A stretch of DNA of 54,445 nucleotides from Spirochaetae bacterium HGW-Spirochaetae-5. Its GTDB lineage: Bacteria > Spirochaetota > UBA4802 > UBA5550. Every line of letters starts with the position of its first letter. Positions within the stretch are counted from its first letter, which is position 1. This document shows, piece after piece, positions 21,398 to 49,660 of the stretch. The notes beneath the pieces are model-generated. The model was not told the origin of the DNA and did no database searches. It worked only from the letters and a program-made list of their open reading frames with translations. The position numbers and the translations under genes were made by a program. Location: the NCBI GenBank assembly GCA_002839285.1, contig PGXT01000014.1:1-54445 (forward strand), written 5' to 3'.

Positions 21398-21439
21398 CAT
21401 TTATCTGCAGATTTTTTTTCACGGTTTATAAATACCCGT

Positions 21440-21594
21440 AGATGCCGTGTAGCCAAAGTTTTAGAACCTGGAACCAGGTGGGTTCCCGCATATGATATCA
21501 GATCTTCTCCTCGAGGGAGCTTGATCCTTAATCACAAATATTGAGATCCCGAAATTTTAGTAGGTTCAAAACATTGTATGACTAATCACGGGCA
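21440..21594 (+). ncRNA. Candidate structured RNA downstream of nifJ
   Basis: No ORF fits here, yet the sequence folds well. Ends can pair (GCCGTG 21443-21448 with CACGGGC near 21588). GTTTTAGAACCT (21458-21469) pairs with AGGTTCAAAAC (about 21562-21572). Inside, GGAACC-AGGTG-GGTTCC is a six-base-pair hairpin (21470-21486), and GATC-T-TCTCC-tcga-GGGAG-CTT-GATC is a second one near 21501-21526. A TATAAA box at 21428-21433 would start transcription near 21440. The long closed rod resembles 6S RNA in layout, but I do not see enough conserved sequence to name it; no clear terminator follows. Confidence 0.4.
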
Positions 21595-21727
21595 CCACAG
21601 GCATACTGAATAAAAAATACAGGGCATATTAAGGCAACAATTTTTTAATTATTGACAATATTTAAAACGATAAGAGAATTTAATGCTTAAAAACTGTATA
21701 TAATGATACAAATAAAAGGAAATAACA

Positions 21728-33092: not shown

Positions 33093-33887
33093 ATGATGAG
33101 ATCACTCTGGACTGCAGCATCAGGAATGGTTGGACAGCAGTTTAATATCGATACCATTTCAAATAATCTTTCAAATGTTAATACTACAGGTTTTAAAAAG
33201 CAGAGAGCTGAATTTGAGGATCTGCTTTATCAGACTGTACTGGCTGCGGGAACACCGGCAACTGAAGTTACAGAGATTCCCACGGGGATACAGGTAGGTC
33301 ATGGGGTTAAGGTTGCCGCAACTCAGAAGATGTTTGAACAGGGGAGTCTTCAATCAACTGAAAATAAACTGGATCTGGCTCTTGAGGGTGAAGGTTTTTT
33401 CAAAATTCAGCTTTATGACGGATCGAATGCATATAGCCGTGACGGTTCATTTAAAATAGATTCCAACAGGCAGATTGTGACATCAAGTGGTTATCTTCTC
33501 GAGCCTCCGGTTGTGCTCCCGGAAAGTTTTATAATGGAGACTCTGTCTATCAGTCAGGATGGGCGGATCACTGTTAAAGTTGTCGGAGAGGAGGATCCCA
33601 TTGAAGTGGGACAGATGGAGATTTACAGATTCGTAAATCCTGCGGGTTTAAGCAGCATGGGGGGTAATCTGTTTAAAACTACACCGGCATCGGGTGAGGA
33701 GATTCCGGGACAGCCGGCTATTGAAGGTATGGCGAAAGTCCATCAGGGGTTTCTTGAGATGTCCAATGTTAAGGTTGTTGAAGAAATGGTGAATATGATA
33801 GTCGCGCAGAGGGCGTATGAAGTTAACTCAAAGGCTATTCAGACTTCGGATTCCATGCTCAGTACTGCAATAGGACTTAAGAGATAA
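33093..33887 (+). CDS. flgG: Flagellar distal rod protein FlgG
   Basis: 264 residues. The N-terminus MRSLWTAASGMVGQQFNIDTISNNLSNVNTTGFKKQRAEFEDLLYQ and the C-terminus HQGFLEMSNVKVVEEMVNMIVAQRAYEVNSKAIQTSDSMLSTAIGLKR are diagnostic for FlgG; the DxALEGEGFFKI block is shared by rod and hook proteins. It heads a tight operon flgG-flgA-flgH-flgI-flgJ, two bases before flgA. flgF is not beside it. Confidence 0.97.
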   Translation: MMRSLWTAASGMVGQQFNIDTISNNLSNVNTTGFKKQRAEFEDLLYQTVLAAGTPATEVTEIPTGIQVGHGVKVAATQKMFEQGSLQSTENKLDLALEGEGFFKIQLYDGSNAYSRDGSFKIDSNRQIVTSSGYLLEPPVVLPESFIMETLSISQDGRITVKVVGEEDPIEVGQMEIYRFVNPAGLSSMGGNLFKTTPASGEEIPGQPAIEGMAKVHQGFLEMSNVKVVEEMVNMIVAQRAYEVNSKAIQTSDSMLSTAIGLKR

Positions 33888-33889
33888 TC

Positions 33890-34399
33890 ATGTTCCGTAA
33901 GCTGATTCCGGTTTTATTTTTTATATTATTTTTACAGCTGAATCTCCTGGGTTATAATCGAATATATCTGATCTCGGAGATTCAGACAGATAAAGAGAAT
34001 ATAATTCTGTCAGATATCTGTAAGATGGAGGGGGATGATATTAATCTGCTTTCAAATATTGTCATCTCTCCTGAACTTTATAAAGACAGTATTGTGGACA
34101 ATAAGGAGCTTCTGACTTTTCTAAATTCAAGTACAGATAAAAAAATGTCTATCTTCGGAAGCGGAGTTAAAGTAAAAAAAATTGAAGCTAAAAAAGAAAT
34201 GGAGATCGTAAAACCTCTTCTTGTCCGTAAAAATGATCTGGTTAATCTCTCTATAAAAAATAACAGTATAATAATTGAGATGAAAGGGAAAGCCCTGAAC
34301 AGCGGGTCGGAAATGGATGAGATCGATTTTAAGTTATCTACCGGTAAAGTTGTTAAGGGTCGAATCACTTCAGAGAAAAAAGCGGAGATAATATTATGA
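33890..34399 (+). CDS. flgA: Flagellar P-ring assembly chaperone FlgA
   Basis: 169 residues with an N-terminal signal sequence (about 1-21). The C-terminal SAF domain is recognisable: LLVRKNDLVNLSIKNNSIIIEMKGKALNSGSEMDEIDFKLSTGKVVKGRITSEKKAEI, matching the family pattern of V-x-x-G-x-x-V...G-x-A-L-x-x-G...V-x-G-x-V. FlgA escorts FlgI in the periplasm during P-ring formation. It overlaps flgH by four bases (ATGA). Confidence 0.88.
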   Translation: MFRKLIPVLFFILFLQLNLLGYNRIYLISEIQTDKENIILSDICKMEGDDINLLSNIVISPELYKDSIVDNKELLTFLNSSTDKKMSIFGSGVKVKKIEAKKEMEIVKPLLVRKNDLVNLSIKNNSIIIEMKGKALNSGSEMDEIDFKLSTGKVVKGRITSEKKAEIIL

Positions 34400-35025
34400 T
34401 CAGATTTTTTCAATTAATCATAATAGTAATTTTGCTGTCATTGCCTTTAATTCCGGCAACAATATGGCAGGATAAAGATATATATTCAACAGATAAAAAT
34501 CTTCAGGTTGGTGATATAATAATTATTAATGTGCGTGATTTTTCCAGACTGAAGTTCGAAGTAGCTCTTAAAAATAATACTTCGACAGACGTTATATCAA
34601 ATCCCGATATGACTATTACTGGTTTTCTCCCGAAAATATCCTCTAATAAAAATATTAAAAATAACGAATCTACAAATTTTAACGGCAACTCGAAAATTGA
34701 CATAGCTATAGCAGCAAGAGTAACTGAGAGACAGAATAACGGATTTTCTGTTATAAACGGCAGCAGAGTTTATACTTTTAATGGTGTAACCAACAGTATT
34801 CAGATTACCGGTATAATAGATCCGAAACTTCTTAACGCCGGTGAAATAGATTCAGGTCATATAGCTGATTTCAGAATTCAGATTACAGGAAGAAAAGAGG
34901 GACTTACCATAAGAAAGGGGCCTCTTGCTGAGGGTGATAAAGCTGCCGCTGAACTGACCGAGCAGGAGAAACAGCAGCTCGTAATTGATTATATCGAAAA
35001 GATAGTCCGGGAATTGACAAGATAA
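34396..35025 (+). CDS. flgH: Flagellar L-ring protein FlgH, without lipidation cysteine
   Basis: 209 residues. FlgH core features are NLQVGDIIIINVRDFSRLKFE, a charged/Asn-rich stretch, IAIAARVTERQNNGFSVINGSRVYTFNG, and SIQITGIIDPKLLNAGEIDSGHIADFRIQITG. The N-terminus is a signal peptide ending IPATIW. The family is normally a lipoprotein with a Cys at the cleavage site, but this protein contains no Cys at all, so it cannot be acylated that way. A C-terminal charged helix (about 175-209) extends beyond the usual end. In a spirochaete the flagellum stays in the periplasm, so a soluble FlgH would be consistent with a ring not embedded in the outer membrane. Confidence 0.88.
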   Translation: MIRFFQLIIIVILLSLPLIPATIWQDKDIYSTDKNLQVGDIIIINVRDFSRLKFEVALKNNTSTDVISNPDMTITGFLPKISSNKNIKNNESTNFNGNSKIDIAIAARVTERQNNGFSVINGSRVYTFNGVTNSIQITGIIDPKLLNAGEIDSGHIADFRIQITGRKEGLTIRKGPLAEGDKAAAELTEQEKQQLVIDYIEKIVRELTR

Positions 35026-35026
35026 T

Positions 35027-36037
35027 ATGAAACTGACAAGAATAGCATTTACTATTATTTTTACAATGGCTGCATTTCAGATGTATGCTGAAATTCCTGT
35101 AAAAGTCAGGAATCTCAGTTTCATTGACGGATATAAACCTAATCAGGCATACGGTTACGGTCTGGTCGTGGGGCTTCAGGGTACTGGTGATTCTAAGTCT
35201 GTTCTCACAAAAAATTCTCTTAAAAATCTTTTTGCTTCCATGGGACTTCAGGAATCAAATCCTGTGACAAAAAATACAGCAGCTGTTATTATATCGGCGA
35301 CTCTCCCCCCTAATTTGAGGATTGGAGAAAAGATTGATGTATCGGTATCATCAGTTGGTGATGCTAAATCGCTTTCCGGCGGAATTCTTGTGCAGTCTCC
35401 ATTAAAGGGTGGGGATGGTTTAATATATGTTGTCGCCCAGGGTAAGGTGTCATTTCCGTCGGGTGAGAATATGAGAAGTGCAGTTAAAACCGCGGGTATA
35501 ATTACCGGCGGCGGAGTTGTTGAAAAAGAGATTAAGCCTGACTTTGTTTTCAAGACTGCAGACAATAAGGATTTTATTTATCTTGTTTTAAATAAATGGG
35601 ATTATTCAACAGCGGATAAACTTATTAAAGCCCTTAAGCTGAAATTAAAGAACAGTGAGATTAATCTTGCCGAGAACGGAAGAATCAGTATTACTATTGA
35701 TACTGCTGTCCCCTTGTCTGAGTTTATTTCCAATATCGAAAATATAGAAGTTATCCCCGATACACGGGCTACAGTAGTTATAAATGAAAAAGATGGTACA
35801 ATTGTAACCGGCGGGAATGTGGCTATTTCAGAGGCTATGGTAAGCCGCCGGGGAATGATAGTGCAGATTGAAAAGTCTGATAAAAAACTGAGCGCCTCGA
35901 TCATTAAAGAATCTACTACCGTTAAAGATCTGGTGGAGAGTCTGAATGCAGTAGGCGCAAATACTGATGATATTATTTCGATACTAAAAGCTCTTAAAGA
36001 CTCGGGAGCTTTACACGCCGACCTGGTTATTAAGTGA
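35027..36037 (+). CDS. flgI: Flagellar P-ring protein FlgI
   Basis: 336 residues with a cleavable signal (MKLTRIAFTIIFTMAAFQMYA). The mature start EIPVKVRNLSFIDGYKPNQAYGYGLVVGLQGTGDSK and later VSSVGDAKSLSGGILVQSPLKGGDGLIYVVAQG, GGGVVE, and the C-terminal TTVKDLVESLNAVGANTDDIISILKALKDSGALHADLVI are clear FlgI signatures. It forms the ring around the distal rod in the peptidoglycan layer. One base separates it from flgH. Confidence 0.97.
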   Translation: MKLTRIAFTIIFTMAAFQMYAEIPVKVRNLSFIDGYKPNQAYGYGLVVGLQGTGDSKSVLTKNSLKNLFASMGLQESNPVTKNTAAVIISATLPPNLRIGEKIDVSVSSVGDAKSLSGGILVQSPLKGGDGLIYVVAQGKVSFPSGENMRSAVKTAGIITGGGVVEKEIKPDFVFKTADNKDFIYLVLNKWDYSTADKLIKALKLKLKNSEINLAENGRISITIDTAVPLSEFISNIENIEVIPDTRATVVINEKDGTIVTGGNVAISEAMVSRRGMIVQIEKSDKKLSASIIKESTTVKDLVESLNAVGANTDDIISILKALKDSGALHADLVIK

Positions 36038-36046
36038 GGATATGTT

Positions 36047-36436
36047 ATGAATGGAATTGAAAGTGTAGTAAGCAATGCGGTTTCAGGAAGAATAAAATCT
36101 GCTGAAAACAGTTTATCCAGAATGAACTCAAATGATAGATTTGAAGCGGAACTTCAATCGGCTGTTACAAAGAATAAAGTTCAGACCGATCCCTCAAAAA
36201 TGGATAAGACTCACAAAAAACTTTGGGACACCTGTGTTGAGGCTGAATCTCTTTTCGTAGGTAAAATGATTAAAGAGATGAAAAAGACTGTCCCGAAGAA
36301 TGAATGGCTCCACGGCGGACAGGCCGAGGATATTTTCGAAGATATGCTTTATGATGAATACTCAATGAACATGGCTAAAAATCATGATTTCGGAATGGCT
36401 AAGCTTCTTTATAATGAGATGAGCAGAAGACTGTAA
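36047..36436 (+). CDS. flgJ: Rod-binding/capping protein FlgJ, N-terminal domain only
   Basis: 129 residues matching the rod-binding domain: KKLWDTCVEAESLFVGKMIKEMKKTVPKNEWLHGGQAEDIFEDMLYDEYSMNMAKNHDFGMAKLLYNEM. The C-terminal muramidase domain of enterobacterial FlgJ is absent, as in most non-proteobacteria, so peptidoglycan must be opened by another enzyme. It is the last gene of the operon and is followed by a terminator. Confidence 0.94.
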   Translation: MNGIESVVSNAVSGRIKSAENSLSRMNSNDRFEAELQSAVTKNKVQTDPSKMDKTHKKLWDTCVEAESLFVGKMIKEMKKTVPKNEWLHGGQAEDIFEDMLYDEYSMNMAKNHDFGMAKLLYNEMSRRL

Positions 36437-36466
36437 TTTTTAATATTAAAATTTTGAAATAATTAA

Positions 36467-36493
36467 AAACCTGCTGTTTAAACAGCGGGTTTT
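36467..36493 (+). terminator. Terminator of the flgG-J operon
   Basis: AAAACC-x-GCTGTTTAAACAGC-x-GGTTTT type stem (CCTGCTGTTTAAACAGCGGG) followed by seven T, about 30 bases after flgJ. Confidence 0.92.
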
Positions 36494-36565
36494 TTTATTT
36501 ATTATTGAAATATCAGTGCAGATGTTCTCGTATCGCTCCAGATAATAAAATCCTGCCGTGCGGTT

Positions 36566-36697
36566 GGTAGCAGTTTATTTTCGGGGGCACAGCGCTTCGC
36601 GCTGCGCCTGAAGTGGGGGTTTACGGGGGCAGCGCCCCCGTAAACCCCCACTTCAGGCGTATGCGGAGCATACGCACCCCAATAATAATTTGCTGCC
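36566..36697. repeat. Palindromic miniature element, copy C, with target duplication
   Basis: Full-length 132-base copy. Ends are GGTAGCAGTTTATTTTCGGG and, inverted, GGCAGCAAATTATTATTGG. The centre is a hairpin with perfect 24-base arms (36607-36630 and 36634-36657, loop AGC). It is flanked on the left by CACAGCGC-TTC-GCGCTG and on the right by GCGTATGC-GGA-GCATACGC. Flanks GTGCGGTT (36558-36565) and GTGAGGTT (36698-36705) differ at one base, an almost intact 8-bp target duplication. Orientation is opposite to copy D. Confidence 0.88.
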
Positions 36698-36730
36698 GTG
36701 AGGTTTCTATTGATCCGACCGGCAAAAATA

Positions 36731-36756
36731 TTGACAATATAGTGCTTATTTATTAA
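36731..36756 (+). promoter_or_regulatory. Probable promoter of the small basic gene
   Basis: Perfect TTGACA at 36731-36736; candidate -10 hexamers TATTAA (36751) and TAACTT (36754) are imperfect in spacing or sequence. GGAGG at 36773-36777 is the ribosome site. Confidence 0.45.
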
Positions 36757-36784
36757 CTTGTAAATAGCATTATGGAGGCCTGTT

Positions 36785-36985
36785 ATGAACAGAAAAGTAA
36801 AAGATTTAAGGGTGGGGATAAGGCTTGATATTAAGAAACCGCCGAAAGTGGAAATTCCGAAAAATGTCTATAACCGTAAGGTTAAGCACAGGAAGGGGAC
36901 TGATAATGAAAATTCAGCCCCTTTTTTTATACCCTCATTACATTTCAATCATCTGCAGCATAATTTAAAAAAATCACTTCTTTAA
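36785..36985 (+). CDS. Small basic protein with terminator inside its ORF; candidate ribosome-rescue factor
   Basis: The ATG follows GGAGG at a good distance, so this is probably a real gene although the frame gives only 66 residues. Residues 1-38 are strongly basic (NRKVKDLRVGIRLDIKK...), with Y-N-R-K-V-K-H at 29-35. An intrinsic terminator (36893-36928) lies wholly inside the frame at codons 37-48, so most transcripts should end before the in-frame stop and code about 47 residues. Small basic proteins made from such stop-less mRNAs include ArfA and BrfA, which release stalled ribosomes when tmRNA fails; ArfA has a similar Y-M-R-K-G-K-H (from memory). Caveat: one extra G in the GGGG run would put TGA-TAA-TGA in frame, giving an ordinary ~39-residue protein. 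Confidence 0.6.
   Translation: MNRKVKDLRVGIRLDIKKPPKVEIPKNVYNRKVKHRKGTDNENSAPFFIPSLHFNHLQHNLKKSLL
36893..36928 (+). terminator. Intrinsic terminator within the small ORF
   Basis: AAGGGG-A-CTGA, loop of ten bases, TCAG-CCCCTT and then a total of seven T (36922-36928). One bulged A interrupts a ten-base-pair stem. The T-run is only on the plus strand; read from the minus strand the stem is followed by CCTGTG, so it is not the terminator of the leftward MBL gene. Confidence 0.85.
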
Positions 36986-37753
36986 AGGTTTGGGGAAAAG
37001 AGTTAAAGGATAAAAAATCTTAAGAATCCCTGTAAGTGGGGTGTCCAGTTCTTTTATTAAATATGATATCAGTTCCGAAAAGTTTTCGATTTTAGAGAAT
37101 CCTCCGTGAGCCATTGCTATGCTTTCAACCTTCAGATTCATTATCCGGCTGAGATTTTTTGACATCTTGATTTTATCGGTTACCGGGAACGGGGAGAGAT
37201 ATTTATCCCTTATTTTTACAACTGTGTCGGAGCAGTACAGGAATGATTCCCTTTTATTATATAAAACAATATCATGCTCAGTATGACCGGGAATAGAGTA
37301 GACCTGCCAGTCAGGGAATCCAGGGAGCAGAGACATATCTTTCAGGGGAAAATTGACTGCGATTTTTTTCGGATATGAAACCCGGAGCATCTTCATTTTT
37401 CTTCTTCTTGCTGCGATATGCGCCAGAAGTGAATCCACCATATGCTGCATGGTTCCTCTTATTCCGGCATACCATAGGTTTATCTCTTCAGGGGCAGCTA
37501 TTGGGATGCTGTATTTTTTTGATAGACTCATTGCAGAACCTGAATGATCGGGGTGGAGATGGGTCACTATTAGTAATTTCAGATGATCCATGGGTCTTTC
37601 GAGAATCTCTGTTATATAAGTTACGATGAGAGAGTGGTCACTTCTGCATCCGCAGTCTAGAAGCAGAAGTGAATTCTGGTATTCTGCAATGTAAAGATCT
37701 GCAATGTGGCCATCCAGCTGATGCAGCGTAAAGGAGTTGAACTTGTATTTCAT
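36974..37753 (-). CDS. MBL-fold metallo-hydrolase
   Basis: 259 residues from ATG 37753; an in-frame upstream ATG would overlap the preceding gene by 77 bases. The metal-binding motif HLHPDHSGS (HxHxDH) is at about residues 66-74, with further His in the SIPGHTEHDIVLY and MAHGG segments and the Asp in LYCSDTVV. This is the glyoxalase II/beta-lactamase fold, with thioesters or similar substrates possible. It lies four bases after DUF3343 in a selenium-associated set, so a role in handling a Se/S carrier or thiol adduct is a fair inference, not shown. Its stop converges with the end of the small ORF. Confidence 0.87.
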   Translation of the reverse strand: MKYKFNSFTLHQLDGHIADLYIAEYQNSLLLLDCGCRSDHSLIVTYITEILERPMDHLKLLIVTHLHPDHSGSAMSLSKKYSIPIAAPEEINLWYAGIRGTMQHMVDSLLAHIAARRRKMKMLRVSYPKKIAVNFPLKDMSLLPGFPDWQVYSIPGHTEHDIVLYNKRESFLYCSDTVVKIRDKYLSPFPVTDKIKMSKNLSRIMNLKVESIAMAHGGFSKIENFSELISYLIKELDTPLTGILKIFYPLTLFPKPLKK

Positions 37754-37757
37754 CTGT

Positions 37758-37991
37758 TTATAACTTCCGGAACTCCACTGTTTCAAAATTATTTTTGAGT
37801 ATTGTCTCAATTTTATCAAGAAGTTTTTCTTCAAATCGTATACACACGCCGCAATCTGAACTTATTGATTTAGGGACCGGTATTATTTTAATTGCCAGCC
37901 CCTCTCCAAGCAGCATTCTTTCCGCTTTCATTACATGACTTACTGAAGGGAATAACGCTGCATAATAAACGGGATTTGACTCTGTTGTCAT
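37758..37991 (-). CDS. DUF3343 putative Se/S carrier-like protein
   Basis: 77 residues. DUF3343 proteins are small and carry a conserved Cys pair; here SSDCGVCIRFEEK near residues 45-57 supplies C-x-x-C. The opening YYAALFPSVSHVMKAERMLLGEGLAIKIIPVPKSIS is the typical first half. The family co-occurs with YedF and an EF2568-like aminotransferase in genomes that have SelD but use selenium as a labile cofactor. ATG overlaps the yedF stop by four bases (ATGA). Confidence 0.88.
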   Translation of the reverse strand: MTTESNPVYYAALFPSVSHVMKAERMLLGEGLAIKIIPVPKSISSDCGVCIRFEEKLLDKIETILKNNFETVEFRKL

Positions 37992-49248: not shown

Positions 49249-49660
49249 CTGAAATAATTTATTGAATAATATATCTGAAAATCGAAGATAAAGCTATATA
49301 ATACTGAAAAAATAGTTACAGGACACTATGTGTCATATAGAGTGAGGTACACTGTTTTAATACGAAGAGAATCGGGTTAGCAGGATGCAGCAAATTATTT
49401 TCGGGGGTGCGTATGCTCCGCATACGCTGGGAGTGGGGGATTACGGGGGCGCTGCCCCCGTAATCCCCCACTCCCAGGCGCAGCGCGAAGCGCTGTGCCC
49501 CCAAAATAAACCGCTGACTTAACAAGAGAGCTGTTCTCAATATTTATATAGTTGACAACCGGTCAGCGGGCTTAGATTAGATAAGCTGAAAATTATTATT
49601 TTACTATAAAAATATCATGCTAGAAAATCCTGATTATAAAAAAATAAAACCGGAGGAAAG
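49249..49660. other. Gene-free stretch with repeat copy D and sbcD promoter
   Basis: 412 bases between divergent genes. Copy D fills 49385-49518. TTGACA at 49552-49557, with TTAGAT-like -10 candidates at imperfect spacing, and GGAGG seven bases before ATG 49661, serve sbcD. Nothing else identified. Confidence 0.6.
49385..49518. repeat. Palindromic miniature element, copy D
   Basis: Full-length copy with ends TGCAGCAAATTATTTTCGGG and, inverted, GTCAGCGGTTTATTTTGGG. The central hairpin has perfect 23-base arms (49428-49450 and 49454-49476, loop GCT). It is flanked by GCGTATGC-TCC-GCATACGC on the left and GCGCAGCGC-GAA-GCGCTGTGC on the right. It is the reverse complement layout of copy C. Flanks TTAGCAGG and TTAACAAG match at 6 of 8 positions, a plausible aged target duplication. 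Confidence 0.86.

Follow-up and report, generated by a model that had tools for sequence, protein, structure and literature searches.

Does a very small basic gene with an intrinsic terminator inside its own reading frame encode a factor for the rescue of stalled ribosomes? The question is raised by a locus in a 54,445-nt contig of Spirochaetae bacterium HGW-Spirochaetae-5 (hereafter the window, meaning the whole stretch of DNA that was analysed). An ATG at 36785, 6 nt downstream of a GGAGG ribosome-binding site (36774-36778), opens a basic frame of 66 codons that nominally runs to a TAA at 36983-36985 (36785-36985; + strand, as are the other features of the locus unless stated). Codons 29-35 (36869-36889) read Y-N-R-K-V-K-H and are followed by a hairpin (36892-36924; 5' arm 36892-36903, loop 36904-36913, 3' arm 36914-36924) and by a tract of seven T (36922-36928, codons 46-48) at which the mRNA is predicted to end; in AAGGGGACTGATAATGAAAATTCAGCCCCTTTTTTT (36893-36928) the final T is the third base of codon 48. 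The original prediction had named the start codon with its GGAGG, the basic 66-codon frame, the motif at residues 29-35 and a complete terminator well before the stop, and all were found in the sequence, with the motif extending from Y29 to H35 and the last base of the terminator coinciding with the end of codon 48, 18 codons ahead of the TAA. The candidate gene proper, delimited by its homologues, by DNA and protein conservation ending at the T-tract and by the core dN/dS, comprises 48 codons (36785-36928) expected to be translated from a terminated, stop-less mRNA; codons 49-66, unconserved in homologues, are probably not normally transcribed. The hairpin has a predicted folding energy of -15.8 kcal/mol, which none of 200 dinucleotide shuffles equalled (z = -3.96). 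A simple consensus terminator scan of the window did not list this hairpin, presumably since the scan permits loops of 3-8 nt and this one has 10.

The gene is separated by a terminator (36465-36494) from an upstream flagellar operon (33093-36436) that, from its translations, we take to encode flgG, flgA, flgH, flgI and a flgJ-like gene. A TTGACA at 36731-36736 is a possible, weak -35 box, seen in the sequence only and lacking a good -10 at standard spacing, and the downstream gene (36974-37834, opposite strand) overlaps the nominal stop of the 66-codon frame. Between the operon terminator and the small gene lies a palindromic element of about 120 nt (36581-36700), found again at 49387-49502 (- strand); the genome contains about 40 copies of nearly full length, most of them 87-96% identical, in the manner of REP or MITE elements. 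The window also carries a 6S RNA (21429-21606, - strand; Rfam RF00013, 84 bits).

A protein search of 59 genomes recovered relatives in 17 besides the window's own, the weakest of which (E 0.097 in G046) was discounted, and an alignment search placed the family in 19 of the 46 genomes of the order, the window's own and 18 others. Alignment searches also found more distant relatives in further families of Spirochaetota, and one relative belongs to a named record, the MAG RA.bin95 (Spirochaetes bacterium). The relatives in f34 were recovered only weakly by a core-only profile (E 0.001 to 4.5), their detection leaning partly on the tail; the order-level set of homologues is independent of them. 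The alignments define a core, (L)LK-x-IR-x-GIRL-x-T-PPK-x-E-x-PK-x-V-Y-x-R-K-x-K-H, in which Y29 and R31 are invariant throughout, distant families included, and the final K-H is replaced in some members by K-Y, K-K, N-R, V-K, G-K or K-D. Predicted products have 46-53 aa and 14-18 K+R. Substitutions in the core fall mostly on the third base of the codon, and wherever dS could be estimated dN/dS came to about 0.04-0.19, so the gene encodes a real protein. The small protein has no significant family match in Pfam and NCBIfam, and its NCBIfam and PHROG matches are weak and scattered; plasmid and phage searches gave no match to the family, and a profile search of the PDB found no relative. DUF7230 gave weak matches to the family (best E 0.0065), and a scan of 12 genomes with the DUF7230 model gave none, the control likewise remaining without a match. 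AlphaFold models were of low confidence (pLDDT 67-72, pTM 0.20-0.25), with a helix at residues 3-10 predicted when the alignment was used.

Mapping of hairpin, T-tract and stops relative to the motif bears out the in-frame terminator as a property of the family. The 3' end is readable in 24 clear homologues, and 22 of them carry a hairpin at the same place, its 5' arm beginning -6 to +3 nt from the end of the Y-x-R-K-x-K-H-like motif, then a T-rich tail and an in-frame stop, and a stop never precedes the hairpin in those 22; in one (G042) the frame leaves its contig before any stop. As background, 180 ordinary ORFs of at least 100 aa were taken from the window and the fetched loci; 6 of these have any hairpin of this kind within their final 100 nt (Fisher p about 5e-22, uncorrected for relatedness), so that the arrangement is not due to chance. 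The same script, applied to E. coli arfA as a control, found the in-frame terminator ahead of its stop; in two homologues (G021 and G003) the script chose a downstream or merged hairpin, whereas the one that counts is the first (dG about -12). In frame 0 none of the 22 homologues has a stop up to the T-tract, whereas a stop is present in 13 of 44 cases in the other two frames (p=0.003). The stems of relatives have unrelated arm sequences at about the same codons, with pairing always kept, as in the four closest members (GGGG-A-CTGA/TCAGCCCC, AGGTCTG/CAGACCT, GGGGATTAC/GTAATCCCC and GGGCTACGA/TCGTGGCCC). Strong hairpins with a poor T-tract (TTAT) occur in G045 and G032, and a stop lies within a few nt after the hairpin in G209 and G032. 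The two exceptions, L013 (G005) and L037 (G036), have ordinary stops 36 nt past the motif and no terminator, possibly a natural escape from control by tmRNA. Weak homologues with ordinary stops (G191, G173, G112, G132, G069) were excluded from the counts. Some weak relatives (L061, L063, L064, L065 and L044, in f34, f38, f11 and f20) show ordinary stops 4-9 residues past the motif; they may represent chance matches or constitutive forms resembling ArfT. Taken over this family, it is very probable that the candidate gene is expressed from a stop-less mRNA.

Conservation itself points to the 3' boundary of the gene. Pairwise comparison of the closest members shows DNA that is 87-92% identical from the core as far as the T-tract and 49-60% identical over the following 90 nt, where shuffled sequence gives 51-54%, and the nominal tails past the T-tract are unrelated in sequence and length; in more distant pairs the drop is less clean (0.68-0.82 before the T-tract, 0.47-0.66 after). 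This collapse of identity indicates that selection acts on a product ending at the T-tract, and that the gene effectively ends there.

The genomic distribution of known rescue systems offers a further line of evidence. The window's own genome has a normal tmRNA (tag ANNNFALAA) and two long release-factor frames, and a tmRNA scored over the cut-off in 14 of the 18 genomes tested, the window's own included; the four below it (G001, G006, G008, G032) are draft assemblies split into about 70-300 contigs, and in two of them completeness is only 72-73%. ArfB (NF006718 over cut-off) was found in 10 and the family in 19 of the 46 genomes of the order, with an overlap of 0 where 4.1 would be expected. 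The exclusion holds by genome (P=0.002), by genus (0.02) and among near-complete genomes (0.012), although phylogeny is not fully corrected for in these values. In a second class, ArfB is present in one genome, from which the family is absent. The simplest reading is that the family is a backup replacing ArfB. Neither ArfB nor the family was detected in 11 of the 30 near-complete genomes of the order (G002, G007, G010, G017, G020, G025, G027, G029, G034, G037, G041), which either have no backup or contain further unrecognised factors.

In light of these results, the small protein is probably a backup ribosome-rescue factor, encoded on a stop-less message, recruiting a release factor, held down by tmRNA and belonging to a new family. 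According to this model, transcription would end at the in-frame terminator at about codon 48 and ribosomes translating the message would stall at its 3' end. As long as trans-translation works, tmRNA-SmpB would tag the product of roughly 48 residues for degradation; once tmRNA is overwhelmed, untagged product would accumulate. It may then dock in the A site of ribosomes stalled on non-stop messages, its basic Y-x-R-K-x-K-H tail entering the vacant mRNA channel; having no GGQ of its own, it would recruit a release factor that frees the nascent peptide, including more of the protein itself.

Other explanations need to be weighed against this one. The locus could encode an ordinary small basic protein, for instance an RNA-binding one, whose stop was lost because the GGGG run was wrongly sequenced or assembled. 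The original prediction had noted that one added G would bring TGA TAA TGA in frame at the hairpin, and for this single sequence the arithmetic is right. The error itself is excluded by the homologues, 22 of which, from different genomes, keep the frame open through hairpins of differing sequence, and conservation stops at the T-tract and not at a stop; a frameshift in the sequencing was rejected as exceedingly improbable. Equally remote is a programmed -1 frameshift, in which the hairpin would stimulate a shift into a stop within its own loop. A frame -1 stop does lie 11-17 nt from the motif in 12 of the 22 homologues, owing to acidic codons that come after codons ending in T, but the remaining 10 have none there, no conserved slippery heptamer was seen, the hairpin follows the motif directly so that the usual spacer is missing, and frameshifting has no need of a T-tract. 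This candidate was rejected since it is not consistent across homologues. A terminator over a short ORF also resembles the general layout of attenuation, with the hairpin controlling a downstream gene and the ORF acting as a leader peptide. Flanking genes, however, are shared no further than the genus or closely related genera and otherwise differ. The downstream genes of different genera are unrelated to one another, in the window and several relatives they are convergent, and no conserved co-directional downstream gene was seen. In addition, the peptide is under purifying selection, with its Y and R invariant across distant families. Because the neighbours are unconserved, an attenuator or leader was rejected as very unlikely.

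A different job for the same kind of gene is harder to set aside, and we regard it as improbable rather than negligible: the product could be a non-stop-encoded, tmRNA-controlled small protein that binds the ribosome or RNA as a hibernation factor, a sensor of tmRNA activity or an inhibitor of translation, without recruiting a release factor. The non-stop layout indicates only control by ribosome rescue, release activity is invisible in sequence, and no profile of a known rescue factor matches the family. To our knowledge, however, the characterised proteins with this layout are ArfA and BrfA, both of them rescue factors; moreover, the Y-x-R-K-x-K-H segment coincides in hhalign with the mRNA-channel segment of ArfA, and the family and ArfB avoid each other. 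The sequences show a conserved layout whose conservation is lost past the T-tract, purifying selection, the presence of tmRNA and the exclusion of ArfB in the order; a rescue function of the family is likely.

Release factor-dependent rescue factors have been thought narrow in range, a survey having found ArfA confined to beta/gammaproteobacteria and BrfA to the B. subtilis group (PMC11633108); further ones are expected to exist, though similarity searches would hardly reveal them (PMC8012679; PMC6881298). The present family is a concrete candidate in Spirochaetota, and the gene layout itself, a terminator in a small basic frame with conservation ending at the T-tract, constitutes a searchable signature. 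It seems somewhat more plausible than the contrary that this is a third, independently evolved, release factor-dependent rescue family made from stop-less mRNA, that it replaces ArfB across genera, and that in some lineages (G005, G036) a normal stop lets it escape tmRNA control. This suggests that tmRNA-dependent control via a stop-less message evolved repeatedly. Searches of the open-access literature brought up no description of a spirochaete factor of this kind.

The messages for both ArfA and BrfA lack a stop codon, and tmRNA keeps the two proteins in check; the proteins have in common a Lys-His motif (K49-H50 in BrfA) which makes contact with 16S rRNA in the mRNA channel; in BrfA the terminator lies within the ORF and the active product, with an N-terminal helix, has about 62 residues (PMC6881298; PMC8012679). 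With ArfA (YhdL, of E. coli and other beta/gammaproteobacteria, PF03889) the family shares a basic product of about 50 residues, an in-frame terminator predicted, here from the sequence, to leave the mRNA without a stop, a host with tmRNA, and a Y-x-R-K-x-K-H segment ahead of the hairpin (Y-M-R-K-G-K-H in ArfA). Beyond this segment there is no likeness: the N-terminal core (L)LK-x-IR-x-GIRL...PPK stands in place of the RF2-binding region of ArfA, and the hairpin starts 2 nt past the motif at the window locus versus 20 nt past it in arfA. In hhalign essentially just the Y-x-R-K-x-K-H stretch was aligned, and weakly (P 0.02, probability 2%). The ArfA Pfam model found nothing over cut-off in 21 genomes, the E. 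coli control being positive, a Pfam scan of family members gave no ArfA match, and the family profile matched none of the ArfA chains present in the PDB database. Since the PF03889 model was not passed, membership in ArfA was rejected. Both ArfA and BrfA are known to be poorly compatible between species.

The likeness to BrfA (YqkK, Bacillus subtilis) lies in an intrinsic terminator within the ORF and a product shorter than the nominal ORF, in a Lys-His about 12 residues before the end of the product (here K34-H35, with the T-tract ending at codon 48) and in a possible N-terminal helix. BrfA belongs to a different phylum, and the comparison follows its published description; the family profile retrieved no BrfA chain at E<=10 from a copy of the PDB in which the presence of BrfA is unverified. 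ArfT is likewise a short basic protein, comparable to the homologues with ordinary stops in G005 and G036, but arfT of Francisella has a normal stop without an in-frame terminator (PMC6299226), unlike the candidate gene. ArfB (YaeJ) is also a backup for rescue, found in complementary genomes of the same order, but it has 140 aa, contains a catalytic GGQ domain of its own and is not homologous to the family: GGQ is absent from the 48-residue product, and the ArfB model (NF006718) has no match at this locus. The proposal of a spirochaete analogue of ArfA and BrfA is thus supported by the non-stop architecture, the Y-x-R-K-x-K-H motif, the tmRNA and the exclusion of ArfB, as a family separate from ArfA: on the evidence of its layout, it appears to work like ArfA and BrfA and is filed as a member of neither.
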